NCBI RefSeq assembly: GCF_014656455.1
Contig: NZ_BNCL01000004.1
Coordinates: 124,001 to 188,000, forward strand
Reading direction: 5' to 3'
DNA from: Paracoccus aerius
GTDB lineage: Bacteria > Pseudomonadota > Alphaproteobacteria > Rhodobacterales > Rhodobacteraceae
Length of the DNA stretch: 64,000 nucleotides
The notes beneath the pieces were generated by a model. It was given only the letters and a program-made list of their open reading frames with translations. It made no database searches and had not been told where the DNA came from. This document shows positions 7,300 through 50,245 of the stretch, in pieces. A program made the translations under genes and the position numbers. Each line of letters opens with the position of its first letter. Within the stretch, counting starts at the first letter, position 1.

Positions 7300-9417
7300 T
7301 CAGTTGGCCTCTGCCGTCTGCAGAAGGTCGGTGATGCGCCGCACCGCTGCGCGGCGGTTTTCGCGGACATCGCCTTCCTGCCTTACCTGCAGGAATTGCT
7401 CGCCATAGCCCTGGACCACCAGATTTTCCGGCGGGACGTCGAAGTATTCGGACAGCGCCAGCGCGACCGATTCCGCGCGCCGGTCCGACAAGGCCAGGTT
7501 GGCGGCATCCGCGCCCACCGTGTCGGTATGACCCTCGATCAGGAACATCTCGCGCGGGTTTTCGGCAATCGATTCCGCGATGACATTGCCCAGCGTGGAC
7601 AGTTGGCGCGCCTGGTCCGGCGAAATCGCGGCCGAGCCGGTGTCGAAGGTGATCGCGTCGATGGTCACCGGCGGCACCAGGGCGCGCACCTCGGGGATGC
7701 TGCGGACCTGACCCAAGGTGAAGCGGCGATCCAGGTCAACCTCGCGGCGCAGGGCCTCGCGAAGGGCGGATTCGTCCTGATAGACGCCGGTCGAGGCAAC
7801 CGGCGCGGGTGCGGGCAGCGTTGCCACGTCCACGGGTTCCACCGTTGCGGTGTCGTCGATCAGGCGCGTCTGGGTGCCGTCGGGCGATACCAGCGTGCGG
7901 CGCAGCACGCGCAGATCGGCATCGCGGATGGTCACGACGCGGCTGCCGTCGCTGCGGGTCACGACCGTGCGGGACGAACCATCGTCGAAGTTCTCGGTCG
8001 CAACGGTCGATCCCGGCTGGCGCAGCAGCGCGACCTCGTCCTTGATGACCTCTTGGCTGCCATCGGCGCGGGTCACGACGACCCGGTCCGGCGCGCTGAG
8101 CGTCACCTGCCGGTTGTTGTTCAGGTAGGTGCCAACGGCGACCGCGCCCAAGCCCAGCAGCAATGCCTTGGCCAAGTCGTTGTCGTCATCGTCGTCTTCC
8201 TCGCGGGCGGCCTGTTCCCCTTCGGTCGCCTGTTCCTGTCCGGGCTCAAGCGCCTCGCGCAGGCTGGTGGCGAAATCCTCGCTGGATGAACGGCTGTTCT
8301 CCTCGGTGATTTCCTGCTCGACGACCTCGCCCTCCTGCTCATCGTCAAGCGCGGCAGCGGTGGCTGCGCCGGTTTCCTGCGCCGCCTGCTCGGCCGCCTC
8401 GGTCACCGGGGCATCGGCCTCGGGGGCATTGCCTTCACCTTCGGGGGCAGCGGCCTGTTCGGCGGACTGGTCCTCGGCAGGCTGGTTCTCGGTGGTCTCG
8501 TTCGCGGTGGACTGGTTCTCGGCGGCAGGCGTTTCTTCCTGCTGCTCCAGCGCCTCGCGCAGCGCATCCTCGCCCTGTTCACCGGCAGGCGCGTCAGGCG
8601 CATCAGCTTCGGCTTGGGCAGGTTCCTCGGCTGCTTCTTCCGCTGCCGGCGTTTCCGCGGCCTGCTGCTCGGCCTCAAGCGCGTCGCGCAGCGAATCTTC
8701 GCTTTCGGCCGTGTCTTCGGGTGCGGGTTCGGGGCGGTCGGCCTGCTGTTCGCGGGCTGCGGCAGCCGGGCGCTCCTGGTCCTGCTGGCGCGCGGCCTCG
8801 GCCGGGCGCTCGTCGGTCACGGCATCAGCTTCGGCGGCGGCAGGGGCTTCCTCGGCAGCAGCCTCGGCTTCGGTGGTTTCCTCGCCCTCGGCCTCGGTCA
8901 CGGCGGGCGCGGCTTCGCGGTTCCCGGCCCGGGCCGGACGCTCGGCTTGCTGTTCGCGCGCGGCGGCGGCGGGACGCTCAGCCTGCTGCTCGCGCGCGGC
9001 CTCGGCAGGACGTTCCGCGGCTTCGGGCTGGGCCTCGGCAGAGGTCTCGGCGGGGGCTTCCTCAGAGTCGCCCTCGGTGGCCTCCTCGGCTGGCGCTTCT
9101 GCTTCAGGCTCGGCCGCAGATTCGGCCGGGGCGGCCTCCTCGGCGGCTTCGGATGCCTGTTCCTGGGCCGCTTCCCCGGCTGCGGGTTCTTCGACCGGCT
9201 CCTCGGCGACTTGCTCTGCGGCCGCTTCCTCGGCCGGGGCTTCCTCGCTGGCCTCGGTGGGGGCGGCCTGTTCGGCCTGCGTTTCGGCCGGCTGTGCCTG
9301 CGCAGGCGGAACCGGCGGCTGTTCACCATCGGCCGGTGCCTGGGCCTGGGCCATCGGCGGCACCAGCAGCGACAGGCAGGCCGCTATGGCCGTGGTGTTG
9401 TTGATCATGCGACGCAT
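7300..9417 (-). CDS. OmpA-domain envelope protein with long Ala/Glu-rich spacer
   Basis: Predicted envelope protein of 705 residues. Residues 1-26 form a signal peptide ending AQA. Residues 27-410 are an Ala/Glu/Pro/Gln-rich, strongly acidic low-complexity region with near-repeats of AAREQQAERPA. A short hydrophobic helix lies at about 415-432 (LAKALLLGLGAVAVG). Residues 440-545 contain repeated R-x-DGS elements. Residues 588-700 form a C-terminal OmpA domain with the peptidoglycan-binding signature IEGHTDTVG, then LSDRRAESVALAL and VQGYGE. The motif LR(E/D)ALE occurs four times, at 243, 286, 386 and 552. The start has GGGAAGGGAAG just upstream. It likely anchors to peptidoglycan; the spacer's function is unknown. 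Confidence 0.87.
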   Translation of the reverse strand: MRRMINNTTAIAACLSLLVPPMAQAQAPADGEQPPVPPAQAQPAETQAEQAAPTEASEEAPAEEAAAEQVAEEPVEEPAAGEAAQEQASEAAEEAAPAESAAEPEAEAPAEEATEGDSEEAPAETSAEAQPEAAERPAEAAREQQAERPAAAAREQQAERPARAGNREAAPAVTEAEGEETTEAEAAAEEAPAAAEADAVTDERPAEAARQQDQERPAAAAREQQADRPEPAPEDTAESEDSLRDALEAEQQAAETPAAEEAAEEPAQAEADAPDAPAGEQGEDALREALEQQEETPAAENQSTANETTENQPAEDQSAEQAAAPEGEGNAPEADAPVTEAAEQAAQETGAATAAALDDEQEGEVVEQEITEENSRSSSEDFATSLREALEPGQEQATEGEQAAREEDDDDDNDLAKALLLGLGAVAVGTYLNNNRQVTLSAPDRVVVTRADGSQEVIKDEVALLRQPGSTVATENFDDGSSRTVVTRSDGSRVVTIRDADLRVLRRTLVSPDGTQTRLIDDTATVEPVDVATLPAPAPVASTGVYQDESALREALRREVDLDRRFTLGQVRSIPEVRALVPPVTIDAITFDTGSAAISPDQARQLSTLGNVIAESIAENPREMFLIEGHTDTVGADAANLALSDRRAESVALALSEYFDVPPENLVVQGYGEQFLQVRQEGDVRENRRAAVRRITDLLQTAEAN

Positions 9418-9439: not shown

Positions 9440-9463
9440 GGTTGATCTGTCGCGAAATCAACC
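9440..9463 (-). promoter_or_regulatory. Inverted repeat upstream of the OmpA-domain gene
   Basis: GGTTGAT-N10-ATCAACC, a perfect 7-bp inverted repeat ending 23 nt before the start codon, could be an operator or an mRNA hairpin. A near-match to an EcfG-type promoter overlaps it: GGAAC at 9485-9481, 17 nt, then GGTT at 9463-9460. The spacing (N10) differs from an FNR/FnrL box (N4), so I do not call it one. Confidence 0.4.
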
Positions 9464-9528
9464 GGCAATCCAAGACGCGGGTTCCCAACATCAGCGTGAC
9501 CGGGGCGTGATCGGCGGAAAGTTCCGAC

Positions 9529-34897: not shown

Positions 34898-36253
34898 TCA
34901 GCGTCCTGCCCGGCCCAAGGCGTCAAGATAGGCGGCGGACCACCAGCCGACATCCTGTTCAACAACGCCGCGCAGAAGGGCCGCATGGCGTTCCTGCCGT
35001 TCTTCCAGCGGCATGGCGATGGCCTGCTGCATGGCCTGGGCCAGTTCCCCGGGGTCGTGGGGGTTGATGATCAGCGCCTCGGGCATCTGTTCGGCCGCGC
35101 CGGCGAAGCGGGACAGGATCAGCACGCCGGGATCGGCGGGATCCTGGGCCGCGACATATTCCTTGGCCACAAGGTTCATCCCATCCGCCAGGGGCGTCAC
35201 GAGGCCGACCCTCGACTGCCGGTAGAGCCCTGCCAGCTCGTCGCGGGGGATCGGGCGGTGGATGAAGCGGATGGGCGTCCAGTTGACGGTCGCGAACTGA
35301 CCGTTGACGCGGCCTGCCAGATGCTCGGTTTCCTCGCGGATCTGCTGGTAGGCATCGACGGATTCGCGTGTGGGCGGGGCGATCTGCAGCAGCATCACCT
35401 TTTCCGTCAGCGACGGGTCGTTTTCCAGAAGATACTGGAACGCCCGGAACCGCTGCGGGATGCCCTTGGAATAATCAAGCCGGTCCACGCCGATCATCGA
35501 CTGCGACCCGGTCAAGGTGCGCATCCGGTCTTCCTGGCGCGCGCCCCGGGCCAGGGCGATGAAGGCCTGGGCATCGATCCCTATGGGAAAGACACCGGCC
35601 CGGATGCTGCGGCCCGCGATGCGGAACTCGGTATCGGAAAGCTGTTCCATATCGGTCAGCGTGCGGGCGCTTGTGGCGAAATGGTCAAGGTCGCGCTGCG
35701 CCTGGAATCCCACCAGGTCATAATGGGACAGCCATTCGAACAACTCGTCCGGGTTGGGCAGGGTGGCGCAGTCGGTGGGGCCGGGAAAGGGGATATGCAG
35801 GAAATGCCCGATCAGCCCCTTGACCCCCAGCTTGCGCAATTCCTGCGCCAGGGGGAAGAGCTGGTAGTCCTGGACCCAGATCCGGTCGTCGGGGCGCAGA
35901 TGCGGAACAACCAGCCGGGCGATGCGTTCGTTCACCCGGCGGTATCCTTCCAGATACTCCGGCAGGATCCGCATCAGGTCGGCGCGACCGTGGCAGACAG
36001 GCCACAGGACCGAATTGGAATAGCCCAGGTAATAATCGTCGTGATCCTGCGGGGTCAGGTCGAAGGACGCCCGCCCGAAAGCCGCGCCCTCGTGGTATGT
36101 CAGGTCGTCCGAAGGATCCTCGACGGTGTCGCCGGAAAAGCCGATCCACAACCCGCCCGAGCTGCGCAGGGCATCTTCAAGCGCGACGACCAGTCCGCCG
36201 GATGGGCTGTCGCCCAGGGGAATGCGGTTCGATATGGCAACAAGGCGCGACAT
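34898..36253 (-). CDS. otsA: Alpha,alpha-trehalose-phosphate synthase
   Basis: GT20 glycosyltransferase of 451 residues joining UDP-glucose and glucose-6-phosphate. The N-terminal glucose-6-phosphate site is RLVAISNRIPLGD followed by GGL. WPVCHGRADLMRI, WVQDYQLFPLAQELR and VDRLDYSKGIPQRFRAF are family motifs. LVTPLADGMNLVAKEYVA is the nucleotide-sugar site. It overlaps otsB by 1 nt (TGATG). Trehalose protects from osmotic stress and drying. Confidence 0.95.
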   Translation of the reverse strand: MSRLVAISNRIPLGDSPSGGLVVALEDALRSSGGLWIGFSGDTVEDPSDDLTYHEGAAFGRASFDLTPQDHDDYYLGYSNSVLWPVCHGRADLMRILPEYLEGYRRVNERIARLVVPHLRPDDRIWVQDYQLFPLAQELRKLGVKGLIGHFLHIPFPGPTDCATLPNPDELFEWLSHYDLVGFQAQRDLDHFATSARTLTDMEQLSDTEFRIAGRSIRAGVFPIGIDAQAFIALARGARQEDRMRTLTGSQSMIGVDRLDYSKGIPQRFRAFQYLLENDPSLTEKVMLLQIAPPTRESVDAYQQIREETEHLAGRVNGQFATVNWTPIRFIHRPIPRDELAGLYRQSRVGLVTPLADGMNLVAKEYVAAQDPADPGVLILSRFAGAAEQMPEALIINPHDPGELAQAMQQAIAMPLEERQERHAALLRGVVEQDVGWWSAAYLDALGRAGR

Positions 36254-44608: not shown

Positions 44609-45184
44609 TCAACCATTGCCGCGCGGGTCAATCCAGCCCACATTGCCGTCTTCACGGCGGTGGACGACATTGACGCCCCCGTGTTTCTCGTTGCGGAACA
44701 CCAGAAGCGGCGTGCCCGACAACTCCATCTGCATCACCGCATCTCCAACCGACAGGGTCGGCACGCGGGTCTCCATCTCGGCGATGATGATCGGTTGCAG
44801 GCCGCTGTCCTGCGATTCCCATTCATCCTCGTCGGCGGCCAGCACATACATGCCTGCCTGCCCGAATTCAACCGGCTCGGACCTGTCCTTGTGATGGTCC
44901 TTCAGGCGGCGCTTGTAGCGGCGAAGCTGCTTGTCCATCTTCTCGCGGCAGGCCTCGAAGGCGGCATAGATCTCGGTGGCGCTGCCACGGGCCGTCACGT
45001 TCAGCCCGGTGGACAGGTGCACCACGGCGTCGCACAGGAACTGGTGGGCATCCTTCGAGAAGGTCACCGTGGCATCCGTGGGGCGCTGCGAATACTTGTC
45101 GATCGTTCCGCCCAGTTCCGTCTTCACATGCGTCGAAAGCGCATCGCCGATGTCGATCTGTTTTCCGCTGATGGTATAGCGCAT
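44609..45184 (-). CDS. hpf: Ribosome hibernation promoting factor, long form
   Basis: 191-residue long HPF that dimerises 70S ribosomes in stationary phase. The N-terminal domain (about 1-100) has ISGKQIDIGDALSTHVKTEL and basic REKMDKQLRRYKRRLKDH. The C-terminal dimerisation domain (about 130-190) has LSVGDAVMQMELSGTPLLVFRNEKHGGVNVVHRREDGNVGWIDP (residues about 147-188). I start at ATG 45184, 6 nt from AGAGGA; an ATG 6 nt upstream has no room for a ribosome site. A perfect EcfG-type promoter match lies about 60 nt upstream. Confidence 0.94.
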   Translation of the reverse strand: MRYTISGKQIDIGDALSTHVKTELGGTIDKYSQRPTDATVTFSKDAHQFLCDAVVHLSTGLNVTARGSATEIYAAFEACREKMDKQLRRYKRRLKDHHKDRSEPVEFGQAGMYVLAADEDEWESQDSGLQPIIIAEMETRVPTLSVGDAVMQMELSGTPLLVFRNEKHGGVNVVHRREDGNVGWIDPRGNG

Positions 45185-45245: not shown

Positions 45246-45270
45246 AACGGGGGTGGCGGGATACGGTTCC
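45246..45270 (-). promoter_or_regulatory. Candidate EcfG (general stress) promoter of hpf
   Basis: GGAAC (45270-45266), 16 nt, CGTT (45249-45246), an exact match to the GGAAC-N16/17-CGTT pattern for EcfG-type sigma factors of alphaproteobacteria. The -10 lies 61 nt before the hpf start. The rest of the 177-nt gap holds a GCCGGC-CCGTCT-GCCGGC hairpin. Confidence 0.6.
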
Positions 45271-48959: not shown

Positions 48960-49499
48960 TCAGGCTGATCCGGCAGCCTGGACGGCCTTCATGCAGGTGT
49001 CTTCATCCCCTGCGGCAAGCGCGTCCCGTGCCGCCTGGATATGCGCCTCGCGGGTCGAGGCATCGCTGGAAGCCTCGGTGCTTCCGCCGTTGGTGGCGGC
49101 TGCCGTCGCCTGCTCGGTCGCCGTGGGCTGGCCCTCCTGCTGGGCCTGCGCATCCGCGCCCGACATGGCAATGCCTGCCTGCTGGCCCGAATCCCCCTCA
49201 AGCGGGGCGTGCGATCCATCCTTGGCAATGCCTTCGGCATCCGCCGAGGCCTCGCCCGAAGCGGCCGGTGCCGCGCTGTTCATTCCGGCATCGGCGGCGG
49301 TTTCCGTTGCGCTGTCCGTGGCCGACGCCCCATCCGATGATCCTTCCAGCGGCGCCAGCGATCCGTCCTTCGAGATTCCTTCCGAGGCAGTCTCTCCCCC
49401 GGTCAGTCGGGCAAGTTCCGCCGCGCAGTCAGCCTGGGCCGACATGGCGGTCATCGCAAGGAATGCGCTGCCCGCCACCCAAGTCAAAGTGGTCTTCAT
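48960..49499 (-). CDS. Exported acidic protein with duplicated KDGS-x-APLEG motif
   Basis: 179 residues, family not recognised. A signal peptide covers residues 1-23 (ends SAQA). The mature part is Ala/Ser/Glu-rich with two copies of a 16-residue motif: SEGISKDGSLAPLEGS at 39-54 and AEGIAKDGSHAPLEGD at 88-103. Cys25 and Cys169 could form one disulfide. The C-terminus (REAHIQAARDALAAGDEDTC) is helical. GGAGG lies 6 nt before the ATG. A perfect GGAAC-N16-CGTT match lies 47 nt upstream, suggesting a stress-induced periplasmic protein. Function unknown. Confidence 0.78.
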   Translation of the reverse strand: MKTTLTWVAGSAFLAMTAMSAQADCAAELARLTGGETASEGISKDGSLAPLEGSSDGASATDSATETAADAGMNSAAPAASGEASADAEGIAKDGSHAPLEGDSGQQAGIAMSGADAQAQQEGQPTATEQATAAATNGGSTEASSDASTREAHIQAARDALAAGDEDTCMKAVQAAGSA

Positions 49500-49546
49500 T
49501 TCATCCTCCCGGAACATGACGCGCCTGCCTGGGGCGCATGGCCCGG

Positions 49547-49571
49547 AACGCCCCCATCCGCCCGATGTTCC
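49547..49571 (-). promoter_or_regulatory. Candidate EcfG (general stress) promoter
   Basis: GGAAC (49571-49567), 16 nt, CGTT (49550-49547), upstream of the exported duplicated-motif protein. The -10 ends 47 nt before the ATG. It is the same spacing as the site in front of hpf. Confidence 0.6.
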
Positions 49572-49618
49572 AGAAAACCGGGAAGGCATCACTTAAGTCG
49601 TAGATGTCCCTTGCGCGG

Positions 49619-50245
49619 TCAGTCCTGCAAGGCCGACCAGGCGTCCATGAAGGCGCGGGCCTTTTCGCCTGTCTCGGCCGCCGCCTGCCCCGGCTTGTAA
49701 AGCGCCGATCCCAACCCGAAGCCGTTCGCCCCCGCGCGCAGATAGACCGCCATCGTGTCGGGCGCGATCCCGCCCACGGGCAGCAGCCGCGCCTCGCGCG
49801 GCAGCACCGCCCGCATGGCCTTGACAGCGGCGGGGGGGATCATCTCGGCCGGGAACAGCTTCAGGGCGGCGGCACCGGCTTCGAGGGCGGCAAAGGCTTC
49901 GCTGACGGTGCCGACGCCGGGGCAATAGGCGAGGTTCAGCCGCCGCGCCTCGGCGGCGACGCACGGGTCAAAATTGGGGGCGATGATGATGCGCCCCCCG
50001 GCATCCGCCACGGCGCGCACCTGTTCGGCCGTCAGAACCGTGCCCGCGCCGACGACCGCATCGGGGGCGGCGGCAACCATGCGGGCGATGCTGTCCAGCG
50101 GATCGGGCGAGTTCAGCGGCACTTCAAGGATCGTGAAGCCCGCCCCGGTCAGGGCGCTCGCGGTTTCCGCGGCCTCATCCGGGCGCAGACCCCGCAGGAT
50201 CGCGATCATCGGGTTCGCGGCAAAAGCTGTGTCGAGGTCGGTCAT
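49619..50245 (-). CDS. dgoA: 2-dehydro-3-deoxy-6-phosphogalactonate aldolase
   Basis: Splits KDPGal into pyruvate and glyceraldehyde-3-phosphate. 208-residue class I aldolase of the KDPG/KHG family: ILRGLRPDEA, EVPLNSPDPLDSI, VGAGTVLTAEQV and the Schiff-base Lys in ALKLFPAEMI; RP-to-EVPLNSP rather than EVTLRTP indicates the galactonate type. Last gene of the sugar operon; the ATG overlaps dgoK. Confidence 0.92.
   Translation of the reverse strand: MTDLDTAFAANPMIAILRGLRPDEAAETASALTGAGFTILEVPLNSPDPLDSIARMVAAAPDAVVGAGTVLTAEQVRAVADAGGRIIIAPNFDPCVAAEARRLNLAYCPGVGTVSEAFAALEAGAAALKLFPAEMIPPAAVKAMRAVLPREARLLPVGGIAPDTMAVYLRAGANGFGLGSALYKPGQAAAETGEKARAFMDAWSALQD

Follow-up and report, generated by a model that had tools for sequence, protein, structure and literature searches.

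A conserved EcfG-type promoter motif upstream of genes for predicted exported two-cysteine proteins in Paracoccus aerius and other alphaproteobacteria

Rhodobacter sphaeroides belongs to the same order as Paracoccus. Its PhyR-NepR-EcfG gene cluster is similar to that of the genome studied here, and under stress, as is established for the class, PhyR titrates NepR and EcfG is thereby freed (PMC5830050). A mutation in R. sphaeroides phyR had an effect under membrane stress and lowered UV survival in the dark, but had none in the heat, salt, and oxidative stresses that this source describes; PhyR there serves membrane stress and dark UV survival rather than broad stress resistance (PMC5830050). 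In Rhizobium etli, EcfG1 promoters read GGAAC-N16-CGTT (PMC3892343). EcfG of Sphingomonas melonis Fr1 likewise uses GGAAC, with a looser GTT as its -10 element (GGAAC-N17-20-GTT, which corresponds to spacers of 16 to 19 counted to NGTT), a wider spacing than the 16 to 17 of the present search, and its targets include a Ku gene, a PRC-barrel gene, and many hypothetical genes (PMC6599016). Among the open-licence PMC papers listed by literature searches, none was, judged by title and opening abstract, a study of EcfG in Paracoccus or of a protein like the one described below.

The window analyzed here, a stretch of 64,000 nucleotides of P. aerius (contig NZ_BNCL01000004.1, positions 124,001 to 188,000), holds GGAACATCGGGCGGATGGGGGCGTT on the minus strand at 49571..49547, which reads GGAAC-N16-CGTT. 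The -35 element GGAAC occupies 49567..49571 and, after a spacer of 16, the -10 element CGTT occupies 49547..49550. The site lies in the gap downstream of a same-strand ORF ending at 49619 and points in the direction of the gene that follows it; 47 nt separate its last base from the ATG at 49499, so that the sequence and distance given in an earlier note on this DNA are both borne out. A Shine-Dalgarno-like GGAGG stands at 49505..49509 (minus strand), where CCGGGAG is conserved in the close upstream regions. In 13 such regions, picked by protein closeness (11 loci from the genus plus L156 and L175), the invariant blocks include GGAACAT and GCGTT, and both the -35 GGAAC and the -10 GCGTT are thus unchanged in 13/13. 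As an EcfG (ECF15) promoter we counted GGAAC and CGTT or GTT with a spacer of 16 to 17, shortly 5' of a gene in the same direction, retained 5' of orthologues, in a genome that has EcfG, NepR, and PhyR; each of these features was found for the site at 49571..49547.

The surroundings of the site hold other elements as well. Some 20 to 27 nt 5' of GGAAC, at about 49590-49597 of the window (minus strand), there is a ACTTAAGTTAA-like element common to most close orthologues (it is present in L034, L035, L038 to L041, and L044), which may be an UP element or a binding site. Within the leader (49504-49546, minus strand), TGCGCC and GGCGCG are able to pair in close orthologues. A 5'-leader hairpin is not claimed, as 0 of 6 pairs were changed on both sides and the changes were one-sided only, and it brought no added stability in the window (z 0.38).

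In the assembly around the window (4.22 Mb, 107 contigs), PhyR (NCBIfam NF006623), NepR (Pfam PF18557), and an ECF sigma factor are encoded side by side in one locus. This sigma factor exceeds the PRK12546 cut-off and is called EcfG here because of its place beside nepR and phyR. The nepR-ecfG unit has a site of its own, GGAAC-N17-GGTT, 39 nt before the nepR ATG. There are nine Sigma70_r2 genes in the genome, one of which encodes RpoH (L064). A second EcfG-like ECF sigma factor (L066, G000:C12:95828), below the model cut-offs, has GGAAC-N16-GGTT 178 nt before its assigned start. The arrangement resembles the EcfG1 regulon of R. etli, where the motif is identical to that of the window and NepR and PhyR are present, although dependence was measured there by mutant microarrays and is inferred here from sequence (PMC3892343).

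The earlier note had pointed to two perfect matches with the same 16-nt spacer, each in a promoter gap, and had held their occurrence within 4.4 kb to be unlikely by chance. Both sites do lie in promoter gaps, but the window holds three perfect GGAAC-N16-CGTT matches. The third, at 35904-35928 (plus strand), is antisense within an ORF (34898-36253) that we take, from its sequence judged by eye, to be otsA, does not lie in a promoter gap, and is probably a chance match. With the spacer fixed at 16, shuffled sequences held 0.30 matches on average and 0 of 100 shuffles reached the three of the window; with spacers of 15 to 18, the window still holds three, the shuffle mean is 1.29, and 14 of 100 shuffles reach three, so that the count is not outstanding. 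The argument from closeness fails, because 81 sites in a uniform spread should yield some 6.6 pairs no more than 4.3 kb apart, which makes the 4.3 kb between the two sites weak evidence. The raw number of motifs also proves nothing, as the genome-wide count of GGAAC-N16/17-CGTT is 81 and that of a reversed-pattern control is 131, and we therefore turned to position and conservation, which provide the strong evidence for the promoter.

All 81 surroundings (30 loci and 51 stretches) were scored, with promoter position defined as no more than 250 nt 5' of a start on the same strand and not inside a gene predicted by a simple codon-based gene caller. Promoter position was found for 44 of the 81 sites; of 23193 positions drawn at random from the same loci plus the window, 975 (4.2%) qualified, as did 4.6% of positions within the window (binomial p about 3e-37 for 44/81 against random positions). 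As the gene caller missed the gene under study, its site is counted among the 37 of 81 not in promoter position. Genes after the 44 sites include those for Dps, two Ku proteins, a superoxide dismutase, an HU/IHF-type protein, and a PRC-barrel protein, all recognized by eye, as well as for HPF and RpoH, both confirmed by family models. This set of downstream genes has the look of an EcfG regulon.

Several individual sites deserve mention. The two Ku-type genes (L027 and L028, identified by eye; G000:C6:8972 and 13246) lie 4.3 kb apart, each with a perfect motif. GGAAC-N17-CGTT 28 nt upstream of rpoH (L112, G000:C9:21755) suggests that EcfG may feed the heat-shock sigma factor. In the window, GGAAC-N17-GGTT at 9460-9485 (minus strand), 42 nt before a 705-aa ORF with an OmpA domain (7303-9417, minus strand), is likely a further EcfG promoter. 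The companion EcfG-type promoter GGAAC-N16-CGTT at 45246..45270 (minus strand) stands 61 nt before hpf (44609-45184). Scored over 250 nt upstream with spacers of 15 to 18 and C, G, or T before GTT, its motif is kept in just 6 of 30 genus loci, its own included, and it offers little corroboration.

Conservation upstream of the exported-protein gene contrasts with this. The protein is present in 34 of 101 genus genomes, our own included, and loci were built for 30 of these, one copy each; L042 is without its 5' end at a contig edge, which left 29 to be scored. GGAAC occurs within 140 nt upstream in 29/29, and the full GGAAC-N16/17-NGTT in 26 (CGTT in 12 of those 26); L046, L047, and L050 keep GGAAC and have no -10 element. 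A wider set of 75 loci came from searching the GTDB genome collection with the family alignment, and 72 of them were scored (L188 has no start codon, and the 5' end is absent from L161 and L189). At -100..-40, GGAAC-N16/17-NGTT was found in 65 of the 72, the CGTT form in 30, and GGAAC in 70. The 247 control ORFs, taken from these loci and having RBS-like starts, gave 11, 1, and 29, and shuffled upstream regions gave 0.3%, 0.03%, and 7%. Sorted by title label, 27 of 31 Paracoccus loci and 38 of 41 others have the motif, and at least one motif occurs in 26 of 27 genus-level labels; with L171 set aside, an alphaproteobacterial bin that appears to correspond to L059, a locus already counted in the genus, the others stand at 37/40 and the genus-level labels at 25/26. 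Orthologues thus keep the motif upstream, the check for which the earlier note had asked, both outside Paracoccus (37/40) and in the genus and wider sets (26/29 and 65/72), two figures that are not independent because the Paracoccus share of the wider set overlaps the genus set.

Among the misses in the wider set, L162, L163, L164, L167, and L212 have GGAAC without a -10 element, the start of L212 probably being set too far upstream, and in L205 (by eye) and L221 the motif was found further upstream. The locus labelled Arenimonas, L218, encodes a protein that resembles those of L214 and L225 and looks like a rhizobial contig within another organism's bin. In Sinorhizobium meliloti ABS7, the annotated ATG of a homologue on pSymB is preceded at 35 nt by GGAAC-N16-TGTT (by eye), and a homologue is also found in S. 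meliloti 1021 (NC_003078.1:1115934-1116254).

The gene itself (48960..49499, minus strand, stop codon included) encodes an acidic, two-cysteine protein of 179 aa that is predicted to be exported. The predicted signal peptide, recognized by eye, spans residues 1-23 (49431..49499), ends in ..AQA, and would leave a mature N terminus reading DCAAELARL; A23 and C25 are invariant in 29 genus members. The duplicated motif that had been noticed earlier is indeed present, as EGISKDGSLAPLEG at residues 40-53 (49341..49382) and EGIAKDGSHAPLEG at residues 89-102 (49194..49235). A C-terminal helical hairpin (residues 144-178, 48966..49070), with Cys169, is predicted by AlphaFold2 as helices 144-163 and 166-178. 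The block means of pLDDT are 91 to 93 from residue 151 on and 67 for residues 141-150; for the whole protein, the mean pLDDT is 66 and the pTM 0.37, and all but the C-terminal part is poorly modeled. The closest relative, at 93%, comes from a genus genome (L033), followed among named relatives by Paracoccus species. Neither the window protein nor the selected homologues (12 different proteins in all) gave a Pfam or NCBIfam match over the curated cut-off, weak matches only being seen, and the single weak profile match to a solved structure (8e1e_A, E 1.2e-4), with no stretch passing alone, was not accepted as a relative. A scan for a terminator consensus found none downstream of the gene, and an intrinsic terminator 3' of it was rejected, the stem being weakly better than shuffles (z -1.67, 12 of 200 as good).

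The family shares an acidic, mostly disordered character, KDG(S/T)xxPL motifs, and an AxSxQDxxAQQxG block. Invariant in the 29 genus members are Cys25, Cys169, the DG of the second motif, and the QQ in AMSGADAQAQQEG; a set of 37 diverse members still shares the QQ, the first cysteine, and some residues of each KDG..P motif without exception, and the second cysteine is present in at least 90%. In the short rhizobial members, the sequence of the C-terminal hairpin is absent and the late cysteine is retained (by eye). Properties were computed for 71 full-length members, the window protein included, with the cleavage site set by a simple pattern and L161, L175, L188, L189, and L212 excluded. Exactly two cysteines follow the signal peptide in 70 of the 71 (L190 has one), glycine exceeds 6% in all 71, the pI is below 5 in 68, and GRAVY has a median of -0.54 (range, -1.47 to -0.20). 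In the lipobox of bacterial lipoproteins, the first cysteine follows G, A, or S; here D precedes Cys25 in the window protein and in more than 90% of genus members, so that no lipobox is seen, and A, which a lipobox would allow, precedes the first cysteine in some rhizobial members. A disulfide probably joins the two conserved cysteines, one at each end of the protein.

Hydrophilins, which protect enzymes from drying, are glycine-rich (more than 6% glycine by the usual rule), hydrophilic (hydrophilicity index above 1), disordered, and stress-linked, and the family is like them in its high glycine and disorder and, apparently, in its hydrophilic character and link to stress. Unlike hydrophilins, its members are predicted to be exported and have two conserved cysteines and KDG(S/T)xxPL motifs. 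Most naturally, the protein is read as a stress protein that is exported, disordered, and closed by a disulfide; that it acts protectively in the periplasm, in the manner of a hydrophilin, is conceivable, if somewhat doubtful.

The family is patchily distributed. All 45 family-carrying genomes that were searched have NepR (20 Paracoccus and 25 others; the genomes of 47 of the 75 loci were sought). In a class sample, NepR is present in 48 of 289 genomes (41 over the cut-off), or 46 of 235 among those of good quality, and in the genus it is present in 99 of 101; these co-occurrence comparisons are uncorrected for relatedness. NepR is present in 33 of the 34 family-carrying genomes of the genus, the exception being G017, a 71% complete assembly. 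As NepR is present in 99 and the family in 34 of the 101 genus genomes, NepR is no predictor of the family there, and the family is a patchy accessory rather than a core output. It was found in 3 of 295 genomes of a family-rank sample and 1 of 385 of a class sample, our own genome included in each, in searches that scored first candidates only and may miss short members. Phage records gave no match to the window protein.

We consider it highly probable that the motif is a working promoter of the general-stress sigma factor EcfG and that its product is an exported stress protein. This reading, which the earlier note had put forward, is supported by the PhyR/NepR/EcfG locus, by the site that nepR itself has, and by the retention of the motif in orthologues. 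A chance match in a GC-rich gap might seem to be favored by the raw genome count, which is lower than that of the control, and by the 37 perfect matches outside promoter position, with the target site formally among them, but 26 of 27 genus-level labels include homologues that keep the motif about as far from the start codon, compared with 11 of 247 controls; short of an alignment artefact, this conservation already refutes chance, to which we give virtually no credence. A repressor rather than a sigma factor might bind these bases as a dyad, GGAAC..GTTCC, as the plus strand of the window has GGAAC-N16-TGTT over nearly the same positions (49545-49569) and the arms make a 5-bp inverted repeat. 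CGTTCC, however, occurs only in the window, L033, and L175 of the 13 close upstream regions, and with CGTTT in the remaining ten, conservation does not extend to the dyad; we regard this reading as very improbable. A real promoter that serves mainly, or is shared with, another ECF sigma factor such as L066 is a less remote alternative and still an improbable one. The genome has nine Sigma70_r2 genes, L066 best matches the same models as EcfG, though below their cut-offs, and R. etli has a second, noncanonical EcfG (PMC3892343). Yet when eight of these sigma factors were scanned (L062 being the ninth), the nepR/phyR-linked one alone passed the PRK12546 cut-off, the nepR-linked ecfG operon has the same kind of site, and in the R. 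etli data described just 1 of 19 EcfG2-dependent units fits the EcfG1 motif (PMC3892343).

For the protein, the main alternative to a bulk protectant is a periplasmic redox or metal sensor or carrier that uses the cysteine pair. That 70 of 71 members have two cysteines, no more and no fewer, after the signal peptide would suit such a role, as would the S. meliloti homologue, which adjoins a heavy-metal-domain protein and a copper ATPase; the consensus, though, lacks CxxC and any conserved cluster of His or Met, and no common neighbor was recognized by eye in 14 distant loci, with at most one ORF visible per side. We judge this alternative unlikely, while giving it appreciable weight. With the motif, its position and conservation, the presence of the regulators, and the cysteine pattern observed directly, we read the exported protein as an output of the EcfG response and very probably a part of the cell's stress defense. 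EcfG-RNA polymerase would start a few bases past CGTT, so that the leader would measure about 40 nt; the product, by its signal peptide seen by eye, would leave by the Sec route and end as an acidic, mostly disordered envelope protein whose two cysteines may be joined by a disulfide. The trigger need not be salt or heat, since the R. sphaeroides phyR mutant was unaffected in both in the tests described (PMC5830050).

Many targets of the general stress response have no known function in S. meliloti (PMC6180224) and, according to the source cited above, in S. melonis (PMC6599016). The present finding adds a target whose promoter is conserved over many genera. The novelty lies in how broadly an unnamed family is linked to the EcfG promoter; the promoter type itself is known. 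The features of the family are simple and testable (two cysteines, a repeated motif, no Pfam or NCBIfam match), and the homologue in S. meliloti 1021 makes it testable in an established strain. On balance, we favor the view that this is an undescribed alphaproteobacterial family of exported, disulfide-closed, disordered proteins that is wired nearly without exception to the general-stress sigma factor. If so, the gene stands at differing places and its EcfG promoter travels along with it, and the family would form a patchy periplasmic arm of the alphaproteobacterial stress response, mainly in what we take to be the Rhodobacterales and Hyphomicrobiales.
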